Part shown: in pieces, positions 12,974 through 36,008 of the stretch | Position numbering within the stretch: position 1 is the stretch's first letter | Layout: each line of letters starts with the position of its first letter | Source of the DNA: an uncultured Haliea sp. | GTDB taxonomy: Bacteria; Pseudomonadota; Gammaproteobacteria; Pseudomonadales; Halieaceae | Assembly: GCA_947258585.1 (NCBI GenBank) | Contig: CAMYIZ010000029.1 | Location: 1-45,673, forward strand | Direction: 5' to 3' | Length of the DNA: 45,673 bases | Position numbers and translations under genes: made by a program | The notes under the pieces: model-generated | The model's input: only the letters and a program-made list of their open reading frames with translations | What the model was told of the DNA's origin: nothing | The model's database searches: none

Positions 12974-14314
12974 TCACTGGTCCGTCGCCACGAGATCGCG
13001 GTAGGGCCGCAGCGCGCGCAGGAACAGCAGCGACGCGGTGACTGCCACCGCAATGCCGACAATGGCCAGTGACTCACCCACCAGCGCCCGGTCCTGGACG
13101 ATGTAGTCTGTGCACAGCGCTATCAGCGTGGGACCAAGGCCCATGCCGACGCCGCTGGTCATCACCACATACACGCCGGCAATCACCCCCCGCATGGTAC
13201 CGGGCGTGATGTTCTGGAGCGTGCTGGCGGCCAGCGCCAGCGGCAGGGTGACCAGCACGCTGGCGGCGACCACAGCCGCCAGGGCGACGTTGACACTGGA
13301 GGTCAGGGGCAGGACCAGCAGGAACGGGCACACGCCGAGGCTGGCGTAGCAGGCCAGTCGCAGGGGATAATCGACGATCCCGCGGGCAGCCATCCAGCGC
13401 CCTATAACCGGCCCGCTGAGCACGCCCGCCGAGCCCGACAGCAGCGCGATAAAGCCGTAGCGCAGGCCCGCTTCCTGTACGCTGAGATCGAAGGTGCGCA
13501 CCAGGTAGCTCGGCACCCAGGCCTGCAGGCCGTAGAGCACGATGACCAGCAGCGGAACGCCGACGAGGAGCGCGGTGTAGATGCGGGCCTGGTTCATCAG
13601 TACCTGTACGATTCCCGCGGACGGCCGGCCGGTCTCCGCCGCAGCGGCGCCGACGGGATGCAGCGACGACTGCATGCGTACAGGCTCCATGACCCGCAGA
13701 AACAGCAATGCGACCAGCACGCCCGGCGCGCCCACCACCATAAAGGTCACCTGCCAGGGCTTCAGGTCCCCCACCAGCGGCAGGCTGACAACCGAGACAT
13801 CGGCCATCATGCCCATCAGGGCGCCGCCGAGAATCATGGAGAAGCCGGCGCCGAGGTAGGGGCCCATGAGGAAGACGCTGATCGGAAACCCGCGCCGCTC
13901 CGGCGGAAAATAGTCCGCCATCATGGACCAGGCCGCCGGGGTCAGCGCCGCCTCGCCCATGCCCACCGCGGCGCGCGCCGCGAACAATTGCCGGAAGCTG
14001 TTGGCGAGGCCACAGGCGGCGGTCGCCAGGCTCCAGAACAGCACCCCCCCGGCCACGATCAGTTTGCGCGAATGCGTATCCGCCAGGCGCCCCAGGGGGA
14101 TACTGAACAGGATATAGGTGATGATGAAGGCGAAACCCTGGAGCAGGCTCATCTGGGTGTCACTGATCTGCAGGTCCTGTTGAATCGGCTCGACCAGCAG
14201 ATTCACGATCTGGCGGTCGACAAAGGACAGCATATAGGCGAACGTCAGCAGCAGTGTCACCCGCCAGGCGAGCCTGGACGATGGGTACGCTGCTTCCCGG
14301 TTGTCACTGCTCAT
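12974..14314 (-). CDS. MFS transporter
   Basis: This 446-residue protein has twelve predicted membrane helices. The early segment LSFVDRQIVNLLVEPIQQDLQISDTQMSLLQGFAF is cut here into its parts: the D-R family mark in helix 1 and the loop before helix 2. The G-R-L-A-D-x-x-x-R-K motif (motif A) follows helix 2. This is the spinster/GudP-like MFS type frequently found beside catabolic genes for organic acids and aromatics. Its ATG overlaps the last 11 bases of the NmrA-like gene, and AGAGG is placed 7 bases upstream within that gene, so they are translationally coupled. It probably imports or exports the product of the cluster's pathway. Confidence 0.88.
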   Translation of the reverse strand: MSSDNREAAYPSSRLAWRVTLLLTFAYMLSFVDRQIVNLLVEPIQQDLQISDTQMSLLQGFAFIITYILFSIPLGRLADTHSRKLIVAGGVLFWSLATAACGLANSFRQLFAARAAVGMGEAALTPAAWSMMADYFPPERRGFPISVFLMGPYLGAGFSMILGGALMGMMADVSVVSLPLVGDLKPWQVTFMVVGAPGVLVALLFLRVMEPVRMQSSLHPVGAAAAETGRPSAGIVQVLMNQARIYTALLVGVPLLVIVLYGLQAWVPSYLVRTFDLSVQEAGLRYGFIALLSGSAGVLSGPVIGRWMAARGIVDYPLRLACYASLGVCPFLLVLPLTSSVNVALAAVVAASVLVTLPLALAASTLQNITPGTMRGVIAGVYVVMTSGVGMGLGPTLIALCTDYIVQDRALVGESLAIVGIAVAVTASLLFLRALRPYRDLVATDQ

Positions 14315-15239
14315 CGGTCACCTCTGGGGTAGTGGGTGGGAAAACGGGGTGGAGCCTGGCCCAGTCCTCGACTCGCAGCAGAGGCAGGGCATGCCGTTGC
14401 CGGAACTGTGACATGTCGACCGTGAAGGGCGATGGGCGCTGAGTGTTGTACCAAGTGTAGATAGCGCGGAGGTCCTCCGCTATGCGCTCTTCCGCGGCGC
14501 GCTCGCCGCCGCCAAACAGCGCCCCCATGCGCCGGGCGAACTCCGCCACGGGCAGGCTCTCGAAGCGAATCTCGCGCCCCCAGGCCCGGCTCAGGGCCGC
14601 GGCGGTCTCAGCGCCGCGCAGGGCCTCGGGCCCGCCGACAACGTAGCGTCGATCGATCGCATCGGGATCGTCGGCGAGCGCGATCATTATCCTGGCGACG
14701 TCGTCCAGGCTGATCCAGCTCACCGGCAGGTCCTCGCCGTGAGGATAGCTCAACAGCTGGCGCTCCCGCAGCGCGGGCAGCGCCCATCCCCGGAGCATGT
14801 TCTCCATGAAAATGACGGGGCAGACGGCGGTCGCCGGAACCGGCGACGCCAGCAGGTCCCGGATGATCCCGTGGCGCACATCGTGGGCAACATGGCCTAC
14901 GGGACGGTCACCCACGTACAGGCTGGCGTTGAACACAATGCGCCGGACAGTGGATTGCTCAGCGGCATGGAGGAAGTTCTGGAAGCCCTGGAGAATTGCC
15001 CCGGGGTCATTGAATGAAGCCGACGGCAGATTGAGGAATACCGTATCCACCTGCCCCAGCACTGCGGGCAGGGTGGCCGGCGCCAACAGGTCCAGCGCCA
15101 CTGGCTTGACACCGTTGGGCAATTTTGCCGGATCAGGCTGGCGCCCGGCACCCAGTACGGTATGGCCAGCCGCCGCCAGGGCAGCCGCCTGGCAGTAGCC
15201 CTGGTCCCCGGTGGCACCCACGACCAAAAAACGTTGCAT
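14304..15239 (-). CDS. NmrA-like NAD(P)-binding protein (atypical SDR)
   Basis: This 311-residue protein begins with the dinucleotide loop VVGATGDQG (residues 5-13) of the NmrA/atypical-SDR family, which binds NADP without the Tyr-Lys pair of classical SDRs. Further marks are VFLNLPSASF, RIVFNASLYVG, PVIFMENML and VSWISLDDVARI, the last three typical of NmrA proteins and NAD(P)H:quinone-type reductases. Two ATGs lie 6 bases apart (15245, 15239). GGAG is 8 bases before the second and only 2 before the first, so I choose 15239. It lies between the TonB receptor (67 bases downstream of that gene's stop) and the MFS gene, which overlaps it by 11 bases. Confidence 0.85.
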   Translation of the reverse strand: MQRFLVVGATGDQGYCQAAALAAAGHTVLGAGRQPDPAKLPNGVKPVALDLLAPATLPAVLGQVDTVFLNLPSASFNDPGAILQGFQNFLHAAEQSTVRRIVFNASLYVGDRPVGHVAHDVRHGIIRDLLASPVPATAVCPVIFMENMLRGWALPALRERQLLSYPHGEDLPVSWISLDDVARIMIALADDPDAIDRRYVVGGPEALRGAETAAALSRAWGREIRFESLPVAEFARRMGALFGGGERAAEERIAEDLRAIYTWYNTQRPSPFTVDMSQFRQRHALPLLRVEDWARLHPVFPPTTPEVTDEQ

Positions 15240-15270
15240 GGACATTACTCCAGCCAGCGCCGGGGCGGGA

Positions 15271-15306: not shown

Positions 15307-17586
15307 TCAGAAGCGCGTGGTCAGCTCGATGCCGTAGGTACGCGGCACACCGCCCCAAACCGCCCGGTGGGTTCCGCCGTCGAAGCCGAAGTCGTGGAAG
15401 TCCTCATCGGTCAGATTGCGACCGAAAATCGCCACCGACCAGCCGTCGCCGAAGCGATCATAGGTGATGCTCGCATCGAGCAGGCCATAGGAGTCCACGG
15501 CGATGCTGGGGCTGTTGAGGGTGTCCACGAAATGCTCGTCCCGCCACTGGTAGGACACGCGGGAGAACAGTTCGGCGTTGTCACCGATCGGCATACGGTG
15601 CTGCAGGCCGGCGGTGAATTCGAACTCGGGGACCCGCTCGAACTCCAGGCGCTCGGCAGCCGGGTCATCTATCGCCGGCTCGTATACGCCGTTGCGGTCG
15701 GCATCGATGCCCGGGAAGCGGTCATACTTGGCATCCAGGTAGCCGAGGGAGAAGTCGGCGGAAAGCGTGTCCGTCAGCATGACCGAGCTCTCCACTTCAA
15801 TACCCGTGATGGTCGCCTCGGCGGCGTTGCGCAGCACCTGGGCCACCTGCGGGACACCATTCACGACCACAGTATCGGAGATGGTCCGCTGGATGTCGTC
15901 ATAGCTGCTGTGGAACAGCGCGACGTTGAACCGCAGCCGGTCGTCCATCAGCGTGGATTTGACCCCCGCTTCCCAGGTCACCACTTCCTCTTCGTCAACG
16001 GGGCCCAGGGTCTCGGGAATGGACGCCCTGATGTTGTAGGAGCCGGAGCGGAAGCCGGTGGACCAGGTGGCGTAGCCAAACACGTCATCGGTGATACGCC
16101 AGTTCACTCCCACCTTGGGGGAAAAACTGGTCCAGGTCTCATCGTCCGTCACCGTGTTCGGGCAGTCGGCCATGGACAGGGAGGCAAAGACCGTCGCATT
16201 GCCACTGAAGGGGCAGAACACCACCTCTTTCTCTTCGTGGGTCACCCGCCCGCCAACCAGCAGCGACCAGCGGTCATTCAGGTTCCAGTTCGCTTCACCG
16301 AACAGCGCGTAGGACGTATCGTCGGTCAACGCCAGGCCGACCTGCTGGAAAATCGTCGGCTGCGCGGGAGTGCCGCCGATAAAGAATTCCCGGCGCTCGC
16401 CGATGTCGTACTCCTGGGTGAAGTAGAACGCCCCTGCGGTGAACTCGACGACATCGGAGAAACTGGAGGCATAACGGGCCTCGACGGAGAACTGCTCCTG
16501 CGACTCTTCATTGTCCGGGAACGAGAACACGGTGAAGGGAGAGCCGTCAAAATCCGTGGAGGAATCGTAGCTGACCTCCCGGCCCCCGGTGATCAGCGTG
16601 AATACGCCGTGGTCTGCCTCGTAGCTGGCATCCACCACCAGCATCTTGGTCTCACTGTCGACATAGCCCTGGTTGTTGTGGCGAATGTCGTACTTGTCCG
16701 CGGGTGGCGTGTACTCGAAGACCCGCTGCACGGTGGCGGGCCCGGCGACCCGCGGATCAATCCGGCTGTCCAGGTTTTGCGCCGCGGATGAGCCGCCGCG
16801 CCCGCGGTAGTACTCGCCAATCACCGCGACCGAAGTGCGATCCGTCGGCGTCCAGAGCAGTGACGGCCGGATAATATTGACATCATCCTCGGGCTTGCTT
16901 TGGCCGTTGAACAGGTTGTTGAAGTAGCCGTCCGCAGAGCGACTCATCCCGGCCACGCGCACGCTCAGGTCGTCGCTGACCGGGAGATCCACAGCGCCGG
17001 TCATCTGCATGGTGTCATAGTTGCCGAGCTGGAACTTGGCATAGCCGCCAAACTCGTTCCCCGGCCGACGGCTGGTCACCGACACCGCGCCGCCGGTCAC
17101 GTTCTTGCCGAACAGGGTACCCTGGGGGCCGCGCAGGACTTCAACGGACTGGAAGTCGAAAGCGGACGCGATGGAACTGGGACCGAAGCCGACGTAGATG
17201 CCGTCAAAAAACGCACCCACCGCGGGGTCCTGGGAGCGGGTGGTGTTGCTCACCCCGATACCGCGAATGAAAAAGTTGGCAAAACCGGGAAACGTGCCCG
17301 CCGAGTTCAGCTGGACGTTGGGCGCCATGCGGCCGATATCCGTCAGGTCGACTGCGAAGGTCTGCTCGATCGCCTCTCCGCTGTAGACCGAGATGGCTGT
17401 AGGCACTTCCTGGACATCCAGGCCGGTGGCCCGTTTCTGGGAGGTCACCACCACCTCTTCCAAGGCTCGGGGCTGAGCCTGAGCCTGCGCTGCCGGCAGC
17501 AGCGCGGCCACCAGGGCGGAGGCCGCGGCGACGCCGACTACCAGTGAAGATCTCTTGCCGCACGGGCGGCTGGTGTAAGTACTCAT
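15307..17586 (-). CDS. TonB-dependent outer-membrane receptor
   Basis: This 759-residue protein starts with a signal peptide ending near A-Q-A-Q and continues with LEEVVVTSQKRATGLDVQEVPTA, in which the EEVVVT stretch is the TonB-box region and the start of the plug (about residues 35-160). The plug shows GFANFFIRGIGVSNTTRSQDPAVG and VEVLRGPQGTLFGKN. The remaining 600 residues form the barrel and end in Phe, as outer-membrane proteins do (last strand GIELTTRF). The type FIRGIGV-QDPAVGAFFDGIYVG is the branch that, in sphingomonads and Halieaceae, accompanies catabolic clusters for aromatic, terpenoid or steroid compounds rather than iron uptake. AAGG lies 8 bases before the ATG. It has its own strong promoter and operator at 17692-17742 and a 120-base leader. 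Confidence 0.93.
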   Translation of the reverse strand: MSTYTSRPCGKRSSLVVGVAAASALVAALLPAAQAQAQPRALEEVVVTSQKRATGLDVQEVPTAISVYSGEAIEQTFAVDLTDIGRMAPNVQLNSAGTFPGFANFFIRGIGVSNTTRSQDPAVGAFFDGIYVGFGPSSIASAFDFQSVEVLRGPQGTLFGKNVTGGAVSVTSRRPGNEFGGYAKFQLGNYDTMQMTGAVDLPVSDDLSVRVAGMSRSADGYFNNLFNGQSKPEDDVNIIRPSLLWTPTDRTSVAVIGEYYRGRGGSSAAQNLDSRIDPRVAGPATVQRVFEYTPPADKYDIRHNNQGYVDSETKMLVVDASYEADHGVFTLITGGREVSYDSSTDFDGSPFTVFSFPDNEESQEQFSVEARYASSFSDVVEFTAGAFYFTQEYDIGERREFFIGGTPAQPTIFQQVGLALTDDTSYALFGEANWNLNDRWSLLVGGRVTHEEKEVVFCPFSGNATVFASLSMADCPNTVTDDETWTSFSPKVGVNWRITDDVFGYATWSTGFRSGSYNIRASIPETLGPVDEEEVVTWEAGVKSTLMDDRLRFNVALFHSSYDDIQRTISDTVVVNGVPQVAQVLRNAAEATITGIEVESSVMLTDTLSADFSLGYLDAKYDRFPGIDADRNGVYEPAIDDPAAERLEFERVPEFEFTAGLQHRMPIGDNAELFSRVSYQWRDEHFVDTLNSPSIAVDSYGLLDASITYDRFGDGWSVAIFGRNLTDEDFHDFGFDGGTHRAVWGGVPRTYGIELTTRF

Positions 17587-17671
17587 AATATTACCTTCTT
17601 ATCAATTTATAGGAACGTGACACCTTCTTTGCGGGCGGGGCACCACCGCGAAATGAGCCTGACCGCGATCT

Positions 17672-17691
17672 GCGAACCTTGCGGTGTTCGC
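17672..17691 (-). promoter_or_regulatory. Stem-loop in the 5' leader of the TonB-receptor mRNA
   Basis: GCGAAC (17672-17677) and GTTCGC (17686-17691) are perfect inverted copies around an 8-base loop, right after the operator. The leader between the predicted start and the ATG is about 120 bases and contains more GC-rich self-complementary sequence, so a role in mRNA stability or translation control is possible. It matches no riboswitch class I know. Confidence 0.35.
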
Positions 17692-17742
17692 TTTTTGAAT
17701 AAAGTTCAACATTAATATAGTTGTTCGCCGCAAGCATGTCAA
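17692..17742 (-). promoter_or_regulatory. Strong promoter with TTGAA-N5-TTCAA operator (TonB receptor)
   Basis: On the minus strand the -35 is a perfect TTGACA (17742-17737), the spacer is 17 bases and the -10 is TATATT (17719-17714). The palindrome TTGAA-N5-TTCAA (17709-17695) begins 4 bases after the -10, covering the transcription start. The 22-base block 17692-17713 matches the block at 19641-19662 (read in its own promoter's direction) at 19 positions, all differences lying in the 5-base centre. A repressor binding here would block initiation. Confidence 0.75.
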
Positions 17743-17780
17743 CCGCCCGACCCGCAATTTCGGACCCTGAATTGGACCCA

Positions 17781-19535
17781 TCACGCCGCAGGAATCGGAT
17801 CTTCCGCATGGGCTGTTCGCGCCGCGATATAACCAAAGGCTATGGCGGGACCTATGGTGCCACCCGCCCCGAAGTAGGCTTCGCGAGTCGGCGACTCGAC
17901 ACAGTTCCCCGCACCGAACAGCCCGGGGATGGGCTGACCCGAGTGATCCAGTACTCTCGCGGTCGCATCGATCACCGGCCCACCGGAAGTATCGAGCAAG
18001 CCGGGAGCGAGAATTACCGCATACAGCGGCGCGGCCGTGTCCAGTGGATACATGGTGGGATTGAGGAGCTGCTGCAATGGCTCCTCCAGCGGCACATGAA
18101 CCCGCGAGAAATGCGACTGCCATTCTCGCTCGGAAGCGTGTGCCCCACGCTGAAAATCTTCATCCACGCCTTTCACGGCGAAGCGATTGAAGCGCTCAAT
18201 GGTAGCCGCAAGATTGCTGGCGAAATCTCCTCCAAGGGCGAAGGCAATGCCGTGGTCTAGGTGAATGCGCGACAGGCGCGTGGCAAGCTGCGCTGCCAAA
18301 TCGGCAACCGAATCACCGCGGATAAGATGCCCCGAGTCGCCAGGCCCGCGCGGCAGCGGCGGAGTACCGGCAAAGGTATTCACAGCGCGCTGATCGAATA
18401 TCAGGAACAAAAACTGGTTCGAATATTCCACAGCAACCGGATCCCATTCATAGTGAACTCGGCTGCGGTCGTTGTAGTTTCGCTTCTCATTGGCTACCCG
18501 CCGCCCATGCTTGTTGACCATCAGCATCGAGTCACCGGGCGGAATATGTACCGGACCTCCGACCATGCGCTGTCGCAGGGCCTCTTCCAGCACCACCTGG
18601 GTACGCCAGGCCGTACCGAGCTCTCCCTGCATGGCACCCACACGGGCAGCTATAGGCAAAAAATCCCCGGTGGCGGTTGGCATGGCGCAGCTGCCGTAGG
18701 CCATGCGCTGGTGTCGCGCCAACAGCTCCGGGGCATGAGCGAACCCCCCCGTAGCGACGATCACGCCCTTGCGGGCGCGCACCCGCACCTCCTGCCCTGC
18801 ATGCTCCAGCCTCACACCCACGACGCGCCCCTGCTCACTTTCCAGGTCCAGGAGCCGGTGCTGCAACCGCAGGGCAACGCCTCGCTGCACCAGCCAATCC
18901 ACCATGCCATCGACAAGTCCGGCCCCTCTGCCACCGTTGGGCGATGAGGGGCTGGGCCAAATGGAGCGACCCTTTGGAGTCCTGTTTTCCACGAGGTGTG
19001 CGGCATAGTCCGGGGAGGGCCCGGTATCATCTGGCAGTTCAAACAGAGTGAACTGCACTGCGCCGACCTCCTGCAGCAGCTCAGTGGCTGCTGACCCGTT
19101 GCGGTAGAAGGCCAGCAGCAGTGCGTAGCGTTCTGCATCCAACCCCAGAGTCTCCCCATCCGCGTCATAGCGCTCGGGGTAGGCGTAGCGAGCCATGTAG
19201 CGCAGGCAATCTGCCTCCTCGTCCCGCAAACCGGCGCCCCGCAGCCAGGCATTGTTGGGCACCCAGGCCACGCCACTGGCCAGACGCGTGGTCCCACCGG
19301 GCACCGCACTCTTGTCGATCAACATGACCGAGTCGCCCTGGGTAGCTGCGGTTACCGCCGCGGTGCAACCTGCTGCACCACTGCCGACCACAATGATGTC
19401 CACCGTCTCCCGCCACCCCTCAGCAGGTGTCGCGGCAACGGCGGTCCGCAAGCCAAGTATTCCGCCTCCGGCAGCTGCAAAGGCCGTGCGCACAAAATGC
19501 CGACGCTGAAGATTTAGTCGCTCATCGTTGCTCAT
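17781..19535 (-). CDS. Tat-exported FAD-dependent dehydrogenase (KstD/fumarate-reductase flavoprotein family)
   Basis: This 584-residue protein has a twin-arginine signal at its start (Q-R-R-H-F-V at 10-15, then AFAAAGGGILGL). The FAD domain follows with VDIIVVGSGAAGCTAAV, the GGTTRLASGVAWVPNN segment, and at the end GLFGAGNCVESPTREAYFGAGGTIGPAIAFGY, cut here at G-A-G-N and G-P-A-I. The G-G-T-T/W-V-P-N-N and G-x-G-x-T-I-G-P marks are shared by 3-ketosteroid delta-1-dehydrogenases and fumarate-reductase-like flavoproteins. It probably oxidises or reduces a C-C bond of a ring substrate in the periplasm. GGGAG lies 7 bases before the ATG. It is divergent from the SnoaL-like gene, sharing the operator region at 19641-19662, and lies upstream of the TonB receptor on the same strand. 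Confidence 0.88.
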   Translation of the reverse strand: MSNDERLNLQRRHFVRTAFAAAGGGILGLRTAVAATPAEGWRETVDIIVVGSGAAGCTAAVTAATQGDSVMLIDKSAVPGGTTRLASGVAWVPNNAWLRGAGLRDEEADCLRYMARYAYPERYDADGETLGLDAERYALLLAFYRNGSAATELLQEVGAVQFTLFELPDDTGPSPDYAAHLVENRTPKGRSIWPSPSSPNGGRGAGLVDGMVDWLVQRGVALRLQHRLLDLESEQGRVVGVRLEHAGQEVRVRARKGVIVATGGFAHAPELLARHQRMAYGSCAMPTATGDFLPIAARVGAMQGELGTAWRTQVVLEEALRQRMVGGPVHIPPGDSMLMVNKHGRRVANEKRNYNDRSRVHYEWDPVAVEYSNQFLFLIFDQRAVNTFAGTPPLPRGPGDSGHLIRGDSVADLAAQLATRLSRIHLDHGIAFALGGDFASNLAATIERFNRFAVKGVDEDFQRGAHASEREWQSHFSRVHVPLEEPLQQLLNPTMYPLDTAAPLYAVILAPGLLDTSGGPVIDATARVLDHSGQPIPGLFGAGNCVESPTREAYFGAGGTIGPAIAFGYIAARTAHAEDPIPAA

Positions 19536-19603
19536 TTCCGTCTCCCTTTTTTATTTCTTTTGAACTTTCTCTACCACTGATCAAATCATTGGGTGGTCCG
19601 CGT

Positions 19604-19662
19604 TTGACAGCATTGCAGACAGCACCTAATATCAGACGCCAATGTTGAATATAATTCAAAAA
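19604..19662 (+). promoter_or_regulatory. Strong promoter with TTGAA-N5-TTCAA operator (SnoaL/OYE operon)
   Basis: The -35 is a perfect TTGACA (19604-19609), the spacer is 17 bases and the -10 is TAATAT (19627-19632). The palindrome TTGAA-N5-TTCAA lies at 19645-19659, about +6 to +20, inside a 22-base block (19641-19662) nearly identical to the one at the TonB-receptor promoter and in the same orientation to transcription. The GAGGGGG ribosome site of the SnoaL-like gene follows within 10 bases. The same palindrome lies 106 bases upstream of the divergent flavoprotein ATG and may control it too. Confidence 0.78.
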
Positions 19663-19677
19663 TGAGGGGGCCGCCAG

Positions 19678-20247
19678 ATGGACGCCACAACATTGGAGAA
19701 ACGCCTCCTTAAGCTGGAGGCACACGACAGCATCCGCATGTTGGTTGCACAGTATGGAATTGCTGTCGACGATCATGATCTACAGGGCCTGGCCGAGCTG
19801 TTTGCCAAGCAGGCCATGTTCCGCTCCAAGGATGGCGTCATGGAAGCTCACGGTCGTGAGCAGATCCTGGAGCAATTCATAGCCCGCTTCGCCGTGCTCG
19901 GAATAAGCAATCACGTCAGCCACGACCACATCATCACTCTGGATGAGCGGGACATGCAGCGGGCGAAAGGGCTGGTCACCTCTCATGCGGAGCTTTGGCG
20001 CAACCATCAGGCCTACATCGCAGCCCTGCGATACAAGGATCTGTACGTCCTCGAGGATGGCGAATGGCGATTCGGCGAACGCGAACTCGCCTTTCTGTAT
20101 TATGTCCCGATTGCAGAGTATTGCGACGCCCTTGGCAGCCCACTGCGACAGCGCGCCTATGGCGACCAGCGGCCTGCGGATTTCCCGGAGGGGCTGCCAA
20201 CCTGGCAGGACCATCGTCCCATCGACGCCAACAAGACAGCTGGTTGA
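19678..20247 (+). CDS. SnoaL-like (NTF2-fold) protein
   Basis: This 189-residue protein has a SnoaL_4/NTF2-like domain: an N-terminal helix pair (LEKRLLKLEAHDSIRMLVAQYG), A-V-D-D-H-D-L (the usual D-x-x-D/H-W region), LAELFAKQAMF, GREQILEQF, then the beta sheet with SNHVSHDHIITLDE and the end of the cone near YVLEDGEWRFGERELAFLYY. In this fold Asp and His residues in the cavity catalyse isomerisation, hydration or dehydration of cyclic substrates, as in steroid and aromatic catabolism. The start is set by GAGGGGG 8 bases upstream. The OYE-like gene follows after 27 bases in the same operon. Confidence 0.85.
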   Translation: MDATTLEKRLLKLEAHDSIRMLVAQYGIAVDDHDLQGLAELFAKQAMFRSKDGVMEAHGREQILEQFIARFAVLGISNHVSHDHIITLDERDMQRAKGLVTSHAELWRNHQAYIAALRYKDLYVLEDGEWRFGERELAFLYYVPIAEYCDALGSPLRQRAYGDQRPADFPEGLPTWQDHRPIDANKTAG

Positions 20248-20274: not shown

Positions 20275-22257
20275 GTGACGCACAATAGTCAGCATCCACA
20301 CTACCCTCATATCTTTCGTTCGCTCTCAGTGGGGGCAATGACACTACGCAATCGCACCATGACCCCTCCGCATGCGTCGGCCATCGGCAATATTTATGGC
20401 AGTGACGAGGAGGCCCTGCGTAATATCGCGTACTTTGAGCAGCGTGCAAAATCGGGCATCGCCTGGATCGGCGCCCTGTCAACCCTGGTGAAGAACCATC
20501 TCATCCCAGGCTTCGATCCCACGGGTGTAGGCGCCACCACTACGGGCTATTTCCGACTGCCGGGCTTCGTGGAACGCATCCAGCAATTCAGCGACACCAT
20601 GCACCGTCATGACACTCGGGTGACCGTGCAAATGGTCAATCAGGGCGGCATGCCCCATGGCCCTTCGCCGGTGATGAGCGCACCGGTCATCAACCTCATG
20701 CCGCATGTCATGGATAAGAACGATATTGCAGCCTTCGTGCAGGAATACGGTGAGTCAGCGCGGCTGGCCGCGGACGGCCGTGCAGATGGGGTTGAAATCC
20801 ACCTCAATCACGATGATCTGCATCAGTGGTTTCTGTCGCCGGCCACCAATCTGCGCACAGATCGCTACGGGGGCTCATTGGAGAATCGTTGCCGCTTTAC
20901 CCGCGAGGTGCTGCAGTCAATCCGAGATGCGGTGGGTTCAGCCTTCACGTTAGGGGTGCGCATGAACCTCCGCGAGGAAAATCCTGCCGGCTACCAACTG
21001 CACGGCGCGATCGATATCGCCCAGTACCTGGAATCCACCGGCCTGATCGACTACGTGCACGGCGTAGTCGGCAACCCCTGGGGCAATCCCAGCTACATCC
21101 AGCCGGATTATTTCAGCCCCGCTCAATGGGCTGACCTGGCTGGGGAACTGCGGGCAGCATTGGGGCTGCCAGTGGTCTATACCGGCAAGGTCAACAGTCC
21201 GGCCGTCGCGGAGTCGGTTCTCGCTCACGGTCAGGCCGACGTTATCGGCATTGCCAGGGCGCTGATCGCCGACGGTGACTTCGTGGGCAAAGCTGACCAG
21301 GGCCATGCGCTGGACATACGCCCCTGTGTGGGCTGCAACGAATGTATCAGTCGCCGCTACGTGGAGGGCTTGCCATTCGGCTGCGCTGTCAATCCGGCCA
21401 CCAGTCACGAAGTCCTCGGCCCCTGGCCTATTGCTAAACAGCGCCGTAACCTGCTCATTGTAGGGGGTGGTCCGGCCGGGCTGGAGCTGGCCGCGTTGGC
21501 AGCTGAAGGGGGGCTGGAAGTCGAACTCTGGGAAGCAGCGGAGCAGACCGGCGGCCAGCTACGCTGGGCTGCAAGAGCCCCGGGCAATCACCGTTATAGT
21601 GACTACCTGGCCTGGCAGGAGCGACGCCTGGCAAAACTGCCTGTCGATCTAAGGCTGTCCCGAACTGCGAGCGCGGCGTCGGTACTCGCCCACGGCGCCG
21701 ATGTTGTCGCTTTTGCCACCGGCGCACACGCTCGACGTCCCGAGATCCCCGGCATAACACAGCCGCAGGTAGCAGACATCCGCGAAGTACTGGAAGGGAA
21801 TCTTACTCTCGGCAACCGAGTGGTCATAATCGCGCAGGACGACCATCTGTCGCCACTGCTAGTCGCAGATTTCCTGGCTGAACGCGGCCACCAAGTGACT
21901 CTTGTCTACGCCACCAATGCCCCTGCACAACTCGTGGGCCGCTACAGTATCGGTGCGGTGCTTGGTCGTCTGGATGCTCGCGATGTACAGCTGCACACCA
22001 TGCAGGAGGTGGTTGCCATTGACGGCCTGCAGTTGCAAACCCGCCAGGTTTACTCGCGGAAAATTCGTACACTCGCAGGCTTTGACAACATAGTGCTCGC
22101 TTGTGGCAGTGTTCCGGACACCGTTGTTCACGACGCGGTAAAAACGGCCAGGGACGGCGTACACCTCCTCGGAGATGCCTATGCGCCCCGCAGAGTGGTA
22201 TTCGCAACCCGCCAGGCTTATGCCTTGGCGCGCGAATTGGTGACCACGACCGTTTGA
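20275..22257 (+). CDS. Old Yellow Enzyme/FAD fusion reductase (2,4-dienoyl-CoA reductase / BaiCD-like)
   Basis: The protein has 660 residues. An N-terminal FMN TIM barrel (to about 345) carries RYGGSLENRCRF. A 4Fe-4S cluster motif follows, C-V-G-C-N-E-C with a fourth Cys in PFGCAVNP. Then a FAD/NAD domain has the loop NLLIVGGGPAGLELA (about 397-411). This is the layout of 2,4-dienoyl-CoA reductase FadH, trimethylamine dehydrogenase and the bile-acid enzymes BaiCD/BaiH, which reduce enone or dienoyl double bonds. The barrel's usual H-x-A-H-G-Y motif is changed to I-H-L-N-H-D-D-L-H, so the substrate probably differs from FadH. The start codon is GTG; a purine-rich GGAG (about 20264) is upstream. 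It ends in a stem-loop that overlaps the stop. Confidence 0.9.
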   Translation: MTHNSQHPHYPHIFRSLSVGAMTLRNRTMTPPHASAIGNIYGSDEEALRNIAYFEQRAKSGIAWIGALSTLVKNHLIPGFDPTGVGATTTGYFRLPGFVERIQQFSDTMHRHDTRVTVQMVNQGGMPHGPSPVMSAPVINLMPHVMDKNDIAAFVQEYGESARLAADGRADGVEIHLNHDDLHQWFLSPATNLRTDRYGGSLENRCRFTREVLQSIRDAVGSAFTLGVRMNLREENPAGYQLHGAIDIAQYLESTGLIDYVHGVVGNPWGNPSYIQPDYFSPAQWADLAGELRAALGLPVVYTGKVNSPAVAESVLAHGQADVIGIARALIADGDFVGKADQGHALDIRPCVGCNECISRRYVEGLPFGCAVNPATSHEVLGPWPIAKQRRNLLIVGGGPAGLELAALAAEGGLEVELWEAAEQTGGQLRWAARAPGNHRYSDYLAWQERRLAKLPVDLRLSRTASAASVLAHGADVVAFATGAHARRPEIPGITQPQVADIREVLEGNLTLGNRVVIIAQDDHLSPLLVADFLAERGHQVTLVYATNAPAQLVGRYSIGAVLGRLDARDVQLHTMQEVVAIDGLQLQTRQVYSRKIRTLAGFDNIVLACGSVPDTVVHDAVKTARDGVHLLGDAYAPRRVVFATRQAYALARELVTTTV

Positions 22258-27927: not shown

Positions 27928-27951
27928 CCCGGGCCGTCAGGCCTGCCCGGG
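27928..27951 (-). terminator. GC-rich stem-loop with the stop codon of the GGDEF-EAL gene in its loop
   Basis: CCCGGGC (27928-27934) pairs with GCCCGGG (27945-27951); with a one-base bulge the stem extends to CTT/AAG on both sides. The TGA of the minus-strand gene (27939-27937) lies inside the 10-base loop. No T-run follows in either direction, so it is an mRNA-end structure rather than a classic terminator. Confidence 0.4.
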
Positions 27952-30078
27952 GAAGTGGTCGAGGAAGGCGCCGAAGTCCGCTGCCGGCAGGGCCTTGCTG
28001 ATCAGCCAGCCCTGTACATCGCAGGCCCCCATGGCGGCCACAATCTGCAACTGCTCGGGAGTCTCAACGCCCTCCACCACAACCTCCAGACGCAGGGCGC
28101 GAGCCAGCTGGAAGATCGCTGAAACCACGGCGGCCTGCTCCTCCTCCCGCTCGATTCCGGCGACAAACATGCGGTCTATCTTCAGGGTATGGACTGGCAA
28201 GCGCACCAGATAGTTGAGTGACGAGTAACCGGTACCGAAGTCATCGATTGCAATGCGCACACCGAGCGAGCGCAGGTCCTGCAACCAGCTGGCGGTGCTC
28301 TCCATATCCTCGACCAGGCTGCTTTCGGTCAGCTCGAATACCAGGTGCTTCGCCGCCAGGGGGCTGACCGCCAACACTTCGCGGGTGCGCTGGAGAAAGG
28401 CGGGGTCGCGCACCTGATGTGCGGACACATTGATCGAGAGATCGAAGGATTCCGGCAGCTGGTCCGCCCACGCGGACAGCTGGTTGACCGCAGTCTCGAG
28501 GACCCACTCGCCCAGGGGCAGGATGAGGCCGGTCTCTTCCGCCAGGGGAATGAACACGTCCGGGTAGCGGGTGCCGTCGGGGTGCTGCCAACGCAGCAGG
28601 CACTCGGCACCCACCACCCGCTGCAGCGCGCTGTCCACCAGGGGCTGGAAATGCAGTTCGAACTCCTGGTTCTTGAGCGCCGCACGCAGCTCCGATTCCA
28701 GCTGGAGTTTGGAAAACACCTTTCTGTTGTGCGCCGCGGTGTAGAAGGCGTAGCGGTTCCGGCCCGACTGCTTGGCATCAAACATCGCCGTATGTGCCCG
28801 CTGCACCAGCAGATCGAAGTTGTCGCCATCGTCGGGGTACACCGAGATGCCCATGGACGCGGTCAGGCTGAGTCGCCCCCCGTCGGGCAGGTCGCAGGGC
28901 TCGGCGATGGTGGCCAGGACCCGGTCGGCCACCCTCGCGGCGTCCAGCGGGTCGGTGAAATTGCTGAGCACGACCACGAACTCGTCGCCGCCAAAGCGCG
29001 CCAGCTGCATCCCCAGGTGCTCCAGCCCGAGGCTTTCGTCCCTGGCGACGAGGTCACAGGGGCGCACCGCGCTGGCGAGTCGCGAGGATACCTCGCGGAT
29101 CAGGCTGTCGCCGATCGCGGGGCCCAGCGTGTCGTTGATGTGGCGGATTCCGTCGAGATCCAGCATGCAAACGGCGCAGCGATACTCCTGCCGGGATGCG
29201 CCCGCCAACAGCTTTACCGCCTGCTGTTCCAGCAGGCGGCGATTTGCCAGGCCGGTCATCTCATCGTAGTGCGCCAGGCGATGCAGTTCCTGCTGGATGC
29301 GCAGACGCTCACTGGTGTCCTGGAGAATGGCGATAAACACGCTGGGATCGTCATCTTCCGAATACAGCAGGGTGCCCTCGGTGGGATAGACGGAGCCATC
29401 CCTGCGCCGCATCTGCAGGGAGAATTTTTCCTGCTGGTGTAATCTCACCTGCTCCAGCATGCCACCCAGCCCCCGCGCGGAGCCGTTGTGCAGCACTTCG
29501 GTAAAGCTCATGCCCTGGAGTTCCGCCTTGCTGTAGCCGAGGTTGCGCAGTGCGCTCATATTCTCGTCGAGCAGGGCATGGGTGTCGGCGTCGAATACCA
29601 GGATTTCGTCGGGGGACTGGTTGATCACGCGGGCAAAGCGGTCGGCGGAACGCTGCACGGCGACCCCGCCAGCGGCGCGCAACGCAAACTGGGCCCGGTA
29701 GGCCAGCGCTGACCAGTTCACCGGCTTGGAGACGAAATCCCAGGCGCCGATGGAGAAGGCGCGCTGCTCGGCGTCAGTCTCGCTGAGCGAGGTCAGGACA
29801 ATGATGGGCGTGTTCTTGAATTTCGGCCGGCGACGGATCTGGCGGCAGACTTCAAAGCCGTCCATGCCGGGCATGATGATGTCCAGGAGGATGATATCCG
29901 GCGCAATCTGGTCGATCCTGGCCAGGGCATCGGCACCACTGAGTGCCGTGGCCACCGTGTAGCCCTCGGATGCAAAGAACGTTTCCGCGAGCAACAAGCT
30001 ACCCGGGTCATCGTCGACCGCGAGCATCACATAACCGGTGGTGGCCTGCGCATCCCGCGTCGCGGGGTCACCTGACAT
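27937..30078 (-). CDS. Response regulator-PAS-GGDEF-EAL c-di-GMP signalling protein
   Basis: This 713-residue protein carries four domains. REC (about 15-135): acidic cluster D22-D24, phosphoacceptor D66 in ILLDIIMPGMDG, T96 and K118. PAS (about 145-265), beginning FARVINQSPDEILVFDA. GGDEF (about 270-450): intact GGDEF at 363-367, with extra residues (about 347-359, around ESLGLEHLG) between the D-L-V-A-R strand and the motif. EAL (about 455-705): the E-x-L motif is E492-C-L, and D612-D613 (DDFGTGYSS), K633 and E669-G-V-E-T are kept, so phosphodiesterase activity is possible. It would be a cytoplasmic enzyme that makes or breaks c-di-GMP, depending on phosphorylation. I start at the ATG at 30078; no good ribosome site is visible, and the frame is open far upstream only because of GC bias. 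No partner kinase is adjacent. Confidence 0.9.
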   Translation of the reverse strand: MSGDPATRDAQATTGYVMLAVDDDPGSLLLAETFFASEGYTVATALSGADALARIDQIAPDIILLDIIMPGMDGFEVCRQIRRRPKFKNTPIIVLTSLSETDAEQRAFSIGAWDFVSKPVNWSALAYRAQFALRAAGGVAVQRSADRFARVINQSPDEILVFDADTHALLDENMSALRNLGYSKAELQGMSFTEVLHNGSARGLGGMLEQVRLHQQEKFSLQMRRRDGSVYPTEGTLLYSEDDDPSVFIAILQDTSERLRIQQELHRLAHYDEMTGLANRRLLEQQAVKLLAGASRQEYRCAVCMLDLDGIRHINDTLGPAIGDSLIREVSSRLASAVRPCDLVARDESLGLEHLGMQLARFGGDEFVVVLSNFTDPLDAARVADRVLATIAEPCDLPDGGRLSLTASMGISVYPDDGDNFDLLVQRAHTAMFDAKQSGRNRYAFYTAAHNRKVFSKLQLESELRAALKNQEFELHFQPLVDSALQRVVGAECLLRWQHPDGTRYPDVFIPLAEETGLILPLGEWVLETAVNQLSAWADQLPESFDLSINVSAHQVRDPAFLQRTREVLAVSPLAAKHLVFELTESSLVEDMESTASWLQDLRSLGVRIAIDDFGTGYSSLNYLVRLPVHTLKIDRMFVAGIEREEEQAAVVSAIFQLARALRLEVVVEGVETPEQLQIVAAMGACDVQGWLISKALPAADFGAFLDHFPGQA

Positions 30079-30229
30079 GAACAGAGATCTATTGATAGCG
30101 GCCAAAACCCATCGCAGGCGTACAGTGGCGGAAACCTTGAGTTTGCGGGCCACCATGGCGCCTGTCAACCTGATGCAGGATTCGGCTATCCTGTAGTCTT
30201 GCAGGCATTCTACCCAGCGGGAGCAAGGA

Positions 30230-31909
<1,680 letters not shown>

Positions 31910-32036: not shown

Positions 32037-34193
32037 ATGCGCTCACTGCTGTTACTGACCCTCGCCTGCTTCCTGTGCTCACCCGCCCTCGCCAAGCCGG
32101 TCACCGGCGAGCGACTGCTCGCGGCTGACCGCGATGCCGACAATTGGCTCAGCCACGGGCGCGACTACAGCGAACAGCGCTACTCCCCGCTGGCGGAAGT
32201 CAATGCCGGGACCGTGAGCGAGCTGGGCCTGGCCTGGTATTTCGAAACCGATACCCGCCTGGGACTGCAGACCACGCCGCTGGTGATCGATGGCGTGATG
32301 TACTTCACCGGTGCCTGGAACACCGCCTGGGCCCTGGATGCCGCCAGCGGCGAGCTGCTGTGGAAGTTCGACCCCGACGTTGCCCGCAGCAAGAGCATCA
32401 CGGCCTGCTGCGGCGCCATCAACCGGGGCCTGGCGGCCTGGGGCGATCTGCTGTTCATGGGCGCCCTGGACGGACGCCTGATCGCCATCGACCGCAGCAC
32501 CGGACAGATGCGCTGGTCCACCCAGACCACCGACCCGGCGGAGCCCTACGCCATTACCGGCGCTCCCCGGGTGGCCCGGGGCAAGGTATTCATCGGCAAC
32601 GGCGGCTCCGAGTTCGGCACCCGCGGCTATGTCAGCGCCTACGATGCCGCCACCGGTGAATTCGCCTGGCGTTTCTACACGGTGCCGGGCAACCCCGCCG
32701 ATGGCTTCGAAAACGAGGCCATGGCCCGCGCCGCGGAGACCTGGAGCGGCGAGTGGTGGCGCTACGGTGGCGGCGGCACCGTCTGGGACAGCATCGTCTA
32801 CGACCCGGAATTCAACCAGCTCTACCTCGGGGTGGGCAACGGCGCGCCCCACAACCGCCGCATTCGCAGCCCCGGCGGCGGCGACAACCTGTTCCTCACG
32901 TCCATCGTCGCCGTGGACCCGGACACCGGCGAGTACCTCTGGCACTACCAGCAGGTGCCGGGGGAAACCTGGGACTACACCGCCAGCCAGCAGATGACCC
33001 TGGCGGAAATCCCCTGGGAGGGAGCGCCGCGCAAGGTGATCCTGCACGCGCCCAAGGCCGGCTTTGTCTACATCATCGATCGCGCCACGGGCAAGCTGCT
33101 GTCGGCGGAGCCCTACACCACGGTCACCTGGGCCAGTGGCTACGACTTGGACAGCGGCCGGCCGCGGGAGAACCCGGGACAGGACTACGCGGGGGAGCCG
33201 GCCATGGTGTTCCCCTCCGCCATGGGCGGGCACAACTGGCACCCCATGGCCTACAGCCCCGATACCGGCCTGCTGTACATCCCCGAACTGGACATGGGCA
33301 TGCTCTACGATGAAATCGCACCCATTGACTACCGGCACCTGAAGCGCCACTACAACACGGGCTATGAGATGAGCCACGAGAGCTACTCCCAGCGCTTCAC
33401 CCAGGCCATGCTCCGGCACCTGCCCAAGTCCCACCTACTGGCCTGGGACCCGGTGCGCCAGCAGGCGGCCTGGAAGCTGCCCCATCCGAACATCCACAAT
33501 GGCGGCGTGCTGGCTACCGGCGGCAACCTGGTGTTCCAGGGCACCTCGGACGGGCGCTTCATTGCGGTGCAGGCGGATAACGGCGAACTGCTGTGGACCT
33601 TCGAGGCACTCAACAGTGTGATGGCCGGCCCGGTGAGCTACCGGGTCAACGGCGAGCAGTACATCGCGGTCGCCGTCGGGCGGGGTGGCGCGCTGACCAT
33701 GAACACGGGGCGCAGTTATCCCACCGGCAATCCCAACAACCGCATCATGGCCTTCAAGCTCGGCGGCAGTGCCGCCCTGCCGGCGACCCCGGCAGCGGAG
33801 CGACCGGCACCTCCGCCACAGCCCGAGGCAACGGCAGCGGACCTGGAGCAGGGCCGCACGGCGTTCAACCGCTATTGCGCCCGCTGCCACGGCGCCGATG
33901 TGGTCGGTGACGGCTCCATCCCCGACCTGCGCTACCTGCCCGCGGTGTGGCACGAGAATTTCTCCGCGGTGGTCCTGGAAGGCCTGATGGAGCAGGCGGG
34001 CATGCCCCGGTTCGACGATGTGCTGGACAGCGCACAGGTCGGGCAGATCCACGCCTACGTGATTGCCCGGGCCCACGAAGACCACGCCCTGCGCCAGGAG
34101 CAGGGCTGGCTGGCTGCGATAAAGGATTACGCTACCGATATTTCCGCGCGTGTGGCAGCATGGCTGGTACGTTTCCAGGTCAGGGACGACTGA
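32037..34193 (+). CDS. PQQ-dependent quinohemoprotein alcohol dehydrogenase
   Basis: This 718-residue periplasmic protein starts with a signal peptide ending S-P-A-L-A. The eight-bladed PQQ propeller follows: DRDADNWLSHGRDYSEQRYSPL at the start, vicinal Cys124-Cys125 (ACCGAINRG, the disulfide over PQQ), ETWDYTASQQ with the catalytic Asp, and tryptophan docking repeats. After a Pro/Ala linker (about 580-600) comes a cytochrome c domain with heme motif C-A-R-C-H at 614-618 and Met ligand in AGMPRFDDVL. This is the type II (quinohemoprotein) layout: it oxidises alcohols and passes electrons through its own heme. The sulfatase follows after 33 bases. Confidence 0.94.
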   Translation: MRSLLLLTLACFLCSPALAKPVTGERLLAADRDADNWLSHGRDYSEQRYSPLAEVNAGTVSELGLAWYFETDTRLGLQTTPLVIDGVMYFTGAWNTAWALDAASGELLWKFDPDVARSKSITACCGAINRGLAAWGDLLFMGALDGRLIAIDRSTGQMRWSTQTTDPAEPYAITGAPRVARGKVFIGNGGSEFGTRGYVSAYDAATGEFAWRFYTVPGNPADGFENEAMARAAETWSGEWWRYGGGGTVWDSIVYDPEFNQLYLGVGNGAPHNRRIRSPGGGDNLFLTSIVAVDPDTGEYLWHYQQVPGETWDYTASQQMTLAEIPWEGAPRKVILHAPKAGFVYIIDRATGKLLSAEPYTTVTWASGYDLDSGRPRENPGQDYAGEPAMVFPSAMGGHNWHPMAYSPDTGLLYIPELDMGMLYDEIAPIDYRHLKRHYNTGYEMSHESYSQRFTQAMLRHLPKSHLLAWDPVRQQAAWKLPHPNIHNGGVLATGGNLVFQGTSDGRFIAVQADNGELLWTFEALNSVMAGPVSYRVNGEQYIAVAVGRGGALTMNTGRSYPTGNPNNRIMAFKLGGSAALPATPAAERPAPPPQPEATAADLEQGRTAFNRYCARCHGADVVGDGSIPDLRYLPAVWHENFSAVVLEGLMEQAGMPRFDDVLDSAQVGQIHAYVIARAHEDHALRQEQGWLAAIKDYATDISARVAAWLVRFQVRDD

Positions 34194-34226
34194 AGCCGGA
34201 GGGGTTGCCCGGCAGGGAGATCGACC

Positions 34227-36008
34227 ATGTGGACAGCCACTTCACGCTCCATTCCAAGGGGCAGGACATCCCTGTTCTGCGCCGGCATGCTGGCCAGTGT
34301 GCTGGCGGCCGCGGAAGCGCCGCGGCCCAATATCGTGCTGATCCTGGCCGATGATGTCGCGCTGATGGATTTCAGCGCCTACGGCGGTGAGGCCCACACC
34401 CCCAACATTGATGCCCTGGCGGAACGGGGTGTCTTGTTCGCCAACTTCCACGCCACCCCCATGTGCGCCCCCTCCCGGGCCATGCTGCTGACCGGCATGG
34501 ACAACCATCTGGCCGGGGTCGCCAGCATTCCCGAAGTGCTGCCGCCGGAGCACCGCGGCCAGCCCGGCTACAGCATGCACCTGGAGCCGGGCGTCGAGAC
34601 CATCGCCGCGCGCCTGCAGCCGCTGGGCTATCGGACCCTGATGACCGGCAAATGGCACCTGGGCCACGGGCCGGGGCAACTCCCCAACCATCACGGTTTC
34701 GAGCGCTCCTTCGTTCTCGATGCCTCCGGAGCGGACAACTGGGAGCAGCGCCCCTACCTGCCTTTCTACAAGGAGGCGCCCTGGTTCGAGGACGGCGAGC
34801 CCGCCACCCTGCCCGCGGACTTCTATTCCTCGGCCTTTATCGTCGACAAAATGCTGCAGTACCTCGAGGAGACGCCGGCGCAGGAGCAGCCATTCCTCGC
34901 CTACCTCGCGTTCCAGGCGGTGCACATTCCGGTGCAGGCGCCCCGGGAATTCAGCGACAACTACCGCGGCGTCTACGACGCTGGCTGGCAGGCCCTGCGC
35001 AGCGCCCGCTGGCAGCGCGCCCGGGACCGCGGCCTGGTGCCGGAGGACGCTCCGCTGGCGCCCATGCACCCGGCGCTGGCGGCGTGGGAAGAGCTGGACG
35101 CGGAAGAACGCCGGCTCTTCAGCCGCCGCATGGAGGTCAACGCCGGCATGATCGAGGCCATGGACCACCACATCGGCCGCTTCATGGCGTACCTGCAAAG
35201 CCGGGACTTGTACGACAACACGCTGTTCATCGTCACCTCGGATAACGGCCCGGAAGCAGCGAATCCCACCGATTCCGGCATGATGCGCCTGTGGCTGCGG
35301 CTGGTGGGTTACGACGCCGCGACCATCGACACCCTGGGCGAACGGGGCAGCTACGGTTTTATCGGCCCCGCCTGGGCCAGCGCAGCCGCCGGTCCCAGTG
35401 ACCTGTTCAAGTTCTACAGCGGTCAGGGTGGGCTGCGAGTGCCGCTGATCATCGCCGGGCCGGGCATCCAGCCTGACAGGCTGCAGCCGGCTTTTGCCAT
35501 CGCCGCCGACATCGCGCCCACCCTGCTGGACCTGCTGCAACAGCCGCTCGCGGAGCCCATGACCGGCCGCAGCCTGCTGCCCCTGCTTCGCGGTACAGCG
35601 GATCGCGTGTACCCGCCGGATGCCGCTGTCGGTATCGAAACTGCAGGCAATGCCGCCCTGTTCCGGGGGGACTACAAGCTGGTGCGCAACCTGCCGCCTT
35701 TCGGCGATGGCGCGTGGAAGCTGTATCACCTGGCCACGGACCCCGGTGAAACCCGAAACCTGGCCCGGGAACAACCCGCCCTGTTCGCGCAAATGCAGCG
35801 CGCCTATGCCGACTACGCGCAGCGGGTCGGGGCCCTGGACATGCCACCCGGCTACCAGCCGCTGCAACAATTGCAGGCCAACTCACTGCGCCTGCTGGCA
35901 GGCAACTATTGGCCGTTTTTGCTGGTCTGCGTCACAGTTTTGCTGTTGTTGTTGACGGTGCTCTGGCGTATTCTCGCGCGTTTTGTAAAAAGGGCGGGGC
36001 TGAACTGA
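34227..36008 (+). CDS. Membrane-anchored sulfatase (formylglycine type)
   Basis: This 593-residue protein has a type I sulfatase domain. The modified Cys80 lies in C-A-P-S-R-A-M-L-L-T-G, the signal for oxidation to formylglycine. Metal ligands are in LILADDVAL (Asp42/Asp43) and VTSDNGPE, with GKWHLGHGPGQLP and the usual NHHGF region in between. The N-terminus has a hydrophobic stretch ending A-S-V-L-A-A-A that looks like a signal peptide. Close to the C-terminus a strong hydrophobic segment (FLLVCVTVLLLLLTVLW) followed by basic residues predicts an anchor with the domain in the periplasm. It hydrolyses a sulfate ester; the substrate is unknown. No formylglycine-generating enzyme is in the window. 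Its TGA overlaps the next gene's CTG. Confidence 0.91.
   Translation: MWTATSRSIPRGRTSLFCAGMLASVLAAAEAPRPNIVLILADDVALMDFSAYGGEAHTPNIDALAERGVLFANFHATPMCAPSRAMLLTGMDNHLAGVASIPEVLPPEHRGQPGYSMHLEPGVETIAARLQPLGYRTLMTGKWHLGHGPGQLPNHHGFERSFVLDASGADNWEQRPYLPFYKEAPWFEDGEPATLPADFYSSAFIVDKMLQYLEETPAQEQPFLAYLAFQAVHIPVQAPREFSDNYRGVYDAGWQALRSARWQRARDRGLVPEDAPLAPMHPALAAWEELDAEERRLFSRRMEVNAGMIEAMDHHIGRFMAYLQSRDLYDNTLFIVTSDNGPEAANPTDSGMMRLWLRLVGYDAATIDTLGERGSYGFIGPAWASAAAGPSDLFKFYSGQGGLRVPLIIAGPGIQPDRLQPAFAIAADIAPTLLDLLQQPLAEPMTGRSLLPLLRGTADRVYPPDAAVGIETAGNAALFRGDYKLVRNLPPFGDGAWKLYHLATDPGETRNLAREQPALFAQMQRAYADYAQRVGALDMPPGYQPLQQLQANSLRLLAGNYWPFLLVCVTVLLLLLTVLWRILARFVKRAGLN

Follow-up and report, generated by a model that had tools for sequence, protein, structure and literature searches.

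In the 45,673-nucleotide stretch of DNA that was analysed (the window), two near-identical blocks in front of a TonB receptor gene and of a SnoaL/OYE operon are probably (at a probability of about 0.8) operators of TetR1, an autoregulated repressor from another contig, and the surrounding gene cluster would then form an accessory arm of a dispersed catabolic regulon. Very probably the blocks are real operators; TetR1 can be named as their regulator with good confidence, and the predicted mechanism is of the ordinary TetR kind. The computed support covers the motif, its distribution in the genome, the tie to TetR1 and the conservation of position.

Two probable operators and the genes they flank

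The window is contig C29 of the source genome (G000; 4.19 Mb in 77 contigs), which comes from a Haliea-like species. Written in the direction of transcription, its two blocks read AATGTTGAACTTTATTCAAAAA (17692-17713, minus strand) and AATGTTGAATATAATTCAAAAA (19641-19662, plus strand). The first-pass annotation had called them near-identical, and sequence comparison agrees: 19 of the 22 bases are common and the three differences all fall within the 5-base centre. Each block holds the palindromic core TTGAA-N5-TTCAA, at 17695..17709 (minus) for operator 1, in the TonB receptor promoter, and at 19645..19659 (plus) for operator 2, which ends 18 bases before the start codon of the SnoaL-like gene. 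The exact core occurs twice in the window versus 0.01 expected, and none of 100 shuffles reached two. Under a weight matrix built from 24 foreign sites, operators 1 and 2 score 27.2 and 28.8, versus a maximum of 14.4 in 200 Markov-simulated windows, and both are also matched by the model R1 described below.

A TTGACA, a 17-base spacer and a −10 had been reported ahead of each block, and both sets were recovered by the promoter scan as sigma-70-like promoters: TTGACA-17-TATATT at 17714..17742 (minus) for the TonB receptor and TTGACA-17-TAATAT at 19604..19632 (plus) for the SnoaL/OYE operon. These were the only two promoter-like sites in 17500-19800, where shuffled sequence gave a mean of 0.9. 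From the −10 to the start of the operator core there are 4 bases at the receptor promoter and 12 bases at the SnoaL promoter. No separate promoter for the Tat flavoprotein was found by the scan of 17500-19800, thus control of that gene by operator 2 is unproven. At the receptor promoter, the −35 together with the spacer (TTGACATGYTTGCGNCNARCAAC; 17720-17742, minus) is also kept in the relatives G017 and G024; this string occurs once each in the source genome, G017 and G024 and in none of the other 142 genomes searched, with a search pattern built from those same three genomes; it may be the site of a second regulator.

On the minus strand, operator 1 precedes the TonB-dependent outer-membrane receptor (15307..17586; 759 aa; Pfam plug and barrel; orthologues at 79% in G024 and 74% in G017), which is followed co-directionally by an NmrA-like NAD(P)-binding protein (14304..15245, minus) and by an MFS transporter whose gene overlaps the NmrA-like one (12974..14314, minus), with the synteny of both held in G017 and G024. 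The SnoaL_4-domain protein (19678..20247, plus; 189 aa; Pfam; relatives at 62% in both G017 and G024) is followed by an OYE/2,4-dienoyl-CoA-reductase-type flavoenzyme (20275..22257, plus; 660 aa; Pfam), whose two best solved relatives, the matches being remote, are NCR (6qkg) and 2,4-dienoyl-CoA reductase (1ps9). Elsewhere in the window, 27937-31182 encodes a response-regulator/PAS/GGDEF/EAL protein of 1081 aa, and 32037-38947 a PQQ dehydrogenase with a 74% relative near the OYE gene of G024, a sulfatase, and a two-component-propeller GGDEF protein with a 62% relative likewise near that gene.

Between the two operators lies a flavoprotein gene (17781..19535, minus; Pfam), whose best solved relatives, 8am8, 8am3 and 8am6 (E about 1e-105), mark the product as cyclohexanone-dehydrogenase-like, a putative cyclic ketone desaturase. 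Its N-terminus is, judged by eye, of twin-arginine type (RRHFVR), and the protein is probably exported. In the text available for PMC10966990, cyclohexanone dehydrogenase is the enzyme name for the 8am3/8am6/8am8 type from Alicycliphilus denitrificans, and Tyr195, Tyr376, Tyr570 and Gly574 are called catalytic. That enzyme is the closest to the flavoprotein among solved structures (query residues 10-578 aligned), and in an alignment read by eye all four catalytic residues are retained, while the gate residue Trp113 is replaced by Val, so that the pocket may take a larger ring. Given this resemblance, the four retained residues and the replaced Trp113, one may fairly guess, and no more, that the substrate is some cyclic ketone such as a steroid or terpenoid.

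A TetR-family gene with the motif in its own promoter

In the whole source genome, the exact core TTGAA-N5-TTCAA was found eight times versus zero for the reversed control pattern. Random placement of the motif genome-wide had been named in the first-pass annotation as the outcome that would speak against regulation; instead, six of the eight sites are directly upstream of genes. Besides the two window sites, these are C4:9668 (upstream of a TonB receptor, and also overrun by an ORF with no Pfam match), C4:23298 (72 bases before the TetR-family gene TetR1), C34:4048 (upstream of a ChrR-type cupin gene adjoining a PQQ dehydrogenase) and C51:23668 (upstream of an acyl-CoA dehydrogenase). The remaining two are intragenic (in miaA on C2 and in an S8 peptidase gene on C10), score 16.8 and 11.2 by matrix, respectively, have no R1 match and are taken as chance occurrences. 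Two lesser sites were also seen near the C4 receptor: a one-mismatch site (20.7; L009:6767-6787) about 50 bases before the aligned start of the adjoining PQQ dehydrogenase, and a weak one (18.0; L009:9625-9645) next to the receptor site itself. The description of a "small regulon" around the receptor, flavoprotein and reductase has to be given up, as the six strong sites are distributed over four contigs, with the core of the regulon on a different contig from the window.

TetR1 (P0001, G000:C4; 214 aa) is encoded outside the window, on a different contig, which corrects the picture left by the earlier remark that the window holds no regulator gene. It carries an N-terminal TetR helix-turn-helix domain (PF00440, 39.8 bits at a cut-off of 24) and reached no NCBIfam TetR equivalog cut-off, the best being BetI (39.9 versus 201.3 bits). 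Of the 144 genomes other than G000, 28 gave a match at E≤1e-20, including one 31% paralogue; a search of named genomes returned records from Haliea, Kineobactrum and other Halieaceae. In a class-wide sample at E≤1e-30, one of 369 genomes had TetR1, namely the source genome itself.

The exact motif is present 20-102 bases before the aligned TetR1 start in 25 of 29 loci (the source genome's own included); it is absent from L023, where one base mismatches, from L038, from L042, which is truncated by a contig end, and from L043, the 31% paralogue. A search for a regulator gene bearing the motif in its own promoter, proposed in the first-pass annotation, thus found one, and the guess made there of a TetR-type, dimeric repressor gains support from the same loci. 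Among the 25 promoters, the half-sites have a mean pairwise identity of 1.0 (a value fixed by the selection of exact-motif loci), the centre one of 0.50 and the flanks one of 0.28-0.46; the surroundings of the box diverge much more than the box. The helix-turn-helix segment, which we take to be the recognition helix, reads M[TS]ASHLLYYF in 22 of the 28 loci covering this part of the protein. In the source genome, TetR1 has a SnoaL-like gene as its divergent neighbour (77% to that of G001); the SDR gene that holds this position in relatives was not found there.

The tie between TetR1 and the window is drawn by R1, a sequence-only model made from 21 distinct foreign TetR1-promoter sites with the source genome excluded. 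When it was run on the source genome (150 of 474 first-look candidates scored), the 11 matches at E≤10 corresponded to exactly the six sites ahead of genes, with five sites matched on each strand; the top match was the TetR1 promoter, and both window sites were among the matches.

Sites in relatives and other candidate explanations

Of the window cluster, the OYE gene has an orthologue (71%) in just one of 144 further genomes at E≤1e-150, namely G024, and in the family search at E≤1e-200 two of 140 genomes (the source and G024) have it, with at most 8 candidates scored per genome in these searches. Within the genus, to which G007 also belongs, the OYE was absent at both cut-offs from all seven other genomes searched, and for this reason the cluster is regarded as accessory. 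The sites had been expected to be conserved in relatives that keep the cluster, and in both relatives found to keep all or part of it sites stand in the same position, as an exact site in G017 and in degenerate form in G024. In the 15-kb G017 locus the SnoaL, receptor, NmrA and MFS genes are present, and the interval from SnoaL to receptor has one exact site; R1 matches this site although it lies outside the R1 training set. G024 holds OYE, SnoaL, flavoprotein, receptor, NmrA and MFS genes arranged as in the source genome, and across its 19-kb locus matrix scores of at least 12 occur only at the same two promoters (18.0, overlapping one of 12.3, and 15.5), behind a TTGACA and a −10-like hexamer. 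R1 misses these sites, its sole match in G024 (E 3.3) lying elsewhere. At the TetR1 promoter of G024 (L072:15208-15323), three weak boxes (13.1-16.2) and no strong one were seen; this would fit a joint drift of operator and repressor in that genome.

Sixteen relatives contain 55 exact sites, comprising 28 at cluster-type genes, 5 at TetR1 promoters, 1 in G005 and 21 others; surroundings were first read for 26 of the 55, picked by signature-like centres or by nearness to TetR1. The 28 cluster-type sites score 19.4 to 32.7, among them one before the core receptor in G002 (26.6) and one in G004 (23.2) before an acyl-CoA dehydrogenase 96% identical to that on C51 of the source genome. None of the 21 others scores above 17.6, and 18 of these fall within ORFs. 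Sites stand upstream of TonB receptors in G001, G002, G007, G013, G018, G024, G035, G045, G067, G069, G079 and G135 (overlapping, in G018 and G045, the called start of the longest ORF), upstream of a GST/PQQ operon in G017 and G079, and at the cupin/PQQ pair in G001 and G007. By the exact pattern, G003 and G006 have the TetR1 site only, and no site precedes the core receptor of G004. Genes of the core cluster encode an SDR, a SnoaL-like protein, AMP-forming ligases, a FAS1-type dehydratase, a thiolase, a Rieske oxygenase, a GST and a luciferase-like protein; the NCBIfam matches of these enzymes were too general to name a substrate.

A second regulator gene of the core cluster, TetR2 (P0002), is about 1.8 kb from TetR1 in the source genome and near TetR1 in several relatives, and might be what binds the sites, TetR1 being merely its neighbour. 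We consider this improbable. The site abuts TetR1, not TetR2, and three genomes (G011, G036 and G135; 88, 70 and 98% complete, respectively) have TetR1 and a site with no TetR2 match at E≤1e-40, G135 carrying two strong sites (29.8 and 30.8). Conversely, G005 (99% complete) has TetR2 (76%) without TetR1, and in the 44 kb read there no matrix hit reached 12; its whole genome contains one exact site, scoring below 12, and one weak R1 match (E 1.3).

The number of exact sites per genome, compared among family members, separates those with and without TetR1 only to a moderate degree, averaging 4.44 in the 25 genomes with TetR1 versus 2.39 in the 64 without (p=0.0017), the source genome being omitted and G019, with its 31% paralogue, counted as lacking TetR1. 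Genomes without TetR1 are also above the reversed control (153 versus 61), the bare pattern exceeding the control in both groups; therefore the bare pattern has other sources as well. What marks the regulon is the fuller signature, with G/A at the outer positions, an A/T centre and a location in a promoter; the bare pattern does not. In G059 (Halieaceae; L102-L126), 16 exact sites were counted versus one for the control; 6 of the 11 loci examined have relatives of core genes (TetR1, PQQ dehydrogenases, TonB receptors, an SDR, and ligase-like genes at 25-28%) and 5 have no match. If these sites work, G059 would have a much enlarged regulon.

Some excess of the pattern in genomes without TetR1 might be expected were the sites boxes of MetR, a LysR-type regulator, and TTGAA-N5-TTCAA does contain TGAANNNNNTTCA, the published MetR consensus as given in the text available for PMC13393422. 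This reading is more improbable still. The genes scanned beside the eight sites of the source genome (receptor, TetR, cupin, acyl-CoA dehydrogenase, SnoaL, miaA and peptidase) include no methionine gene, and the A/T-rich centre and outer G/A positions belong to the TetR1-promoter signature. Hardly credible is a recent duplication of one promoter with a motif of no regulatory role, which would account for the identity of the blocks, as the DNA outside them differs between the two promoters and the reading is contradicted by the distribution of sites over the genome and across genera, orthologous promoters in other genera holding sites at the same place.

A predicted TetR1 regulon and its reach

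With the operators assigned to TetR1, the claim that the receptor and SnoaL/OYE promoters are co-regulated is supported by their common motif, by the tie to TetR1 and by positional conservation. In the proposed mechanism, whose binding, repression, inducer and substrate we infer, a TetR1 dimer would bind the 15-base palindrome (approximate consensus TTTGAAtaNtATTCAAga), lying across the transcription start or shortly after it, and would thereby block initiation. An inducer, probably the cyclic substrate or a CoA thioester derived from it, would release TetR1, so that the receptor operon and the SnoaL/OYE operon would be expressed together with the core regulon of TonB receptor, PQQ dehydrogenases, Rieske oxygenase, CoA ligases and thiolase. 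As the accessory arm, the window cluster would serve to take up a cyclic ketone or a related compound and to desaturate or reduce it. The same site at TetR1's own promoter would make the repressor autoregulated.

Autoregulation is the general layout of the TetR-family (PF00440) local repressors of catabolic or efflux operons. TetR1 is like them in its TetR_N domain and in a palindrome that stands at its own and its target promoters and overlaps the start region; it is unlike them in that its predicted targets include TonB receptors and a cupin/PQQ locus and occupy four contigs. A search of the literature by sequence did not find the operator string, and in the literature searched on TetR, Halieaceae/Haliea, TonB-dependent receptors and PQQ we found no description of a TetR1 regulon. 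What PMC10100682 says on TetR and TonB had no bearing on the regulon, and steroid, terpen- and aromatic are absent from the main text available for it.

A wider proposal, offered tentatively and with the odds somewhat against it, is that TetR1 is a lineage-specific catabolic master repressor of the Halieaceae and a neighbouring family, with a regulon that grows by operator capture and with the private, conserved TTGACATGYTTGCGNCNARCAAC at the receptor promoter as a second, substrate-specific input. By such capture, accessory islands of uptake plus desaturase genes for new cyclic substrates would gain TTGAA-N5-TTCAA at the start of a TonB receptor operon.

From the motif of the window the analysis arrives at a regulator candidate that can be named, at a defined operator and at a regulon open to testing, all within a family of coastal marine bacteria, and TonB receptors and a probably exported ketone desaturase would be tied to a catabolic network. 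TetR1 may also serve as a handle for finding the substrate, since its inducer should be that substrate or a product of it.
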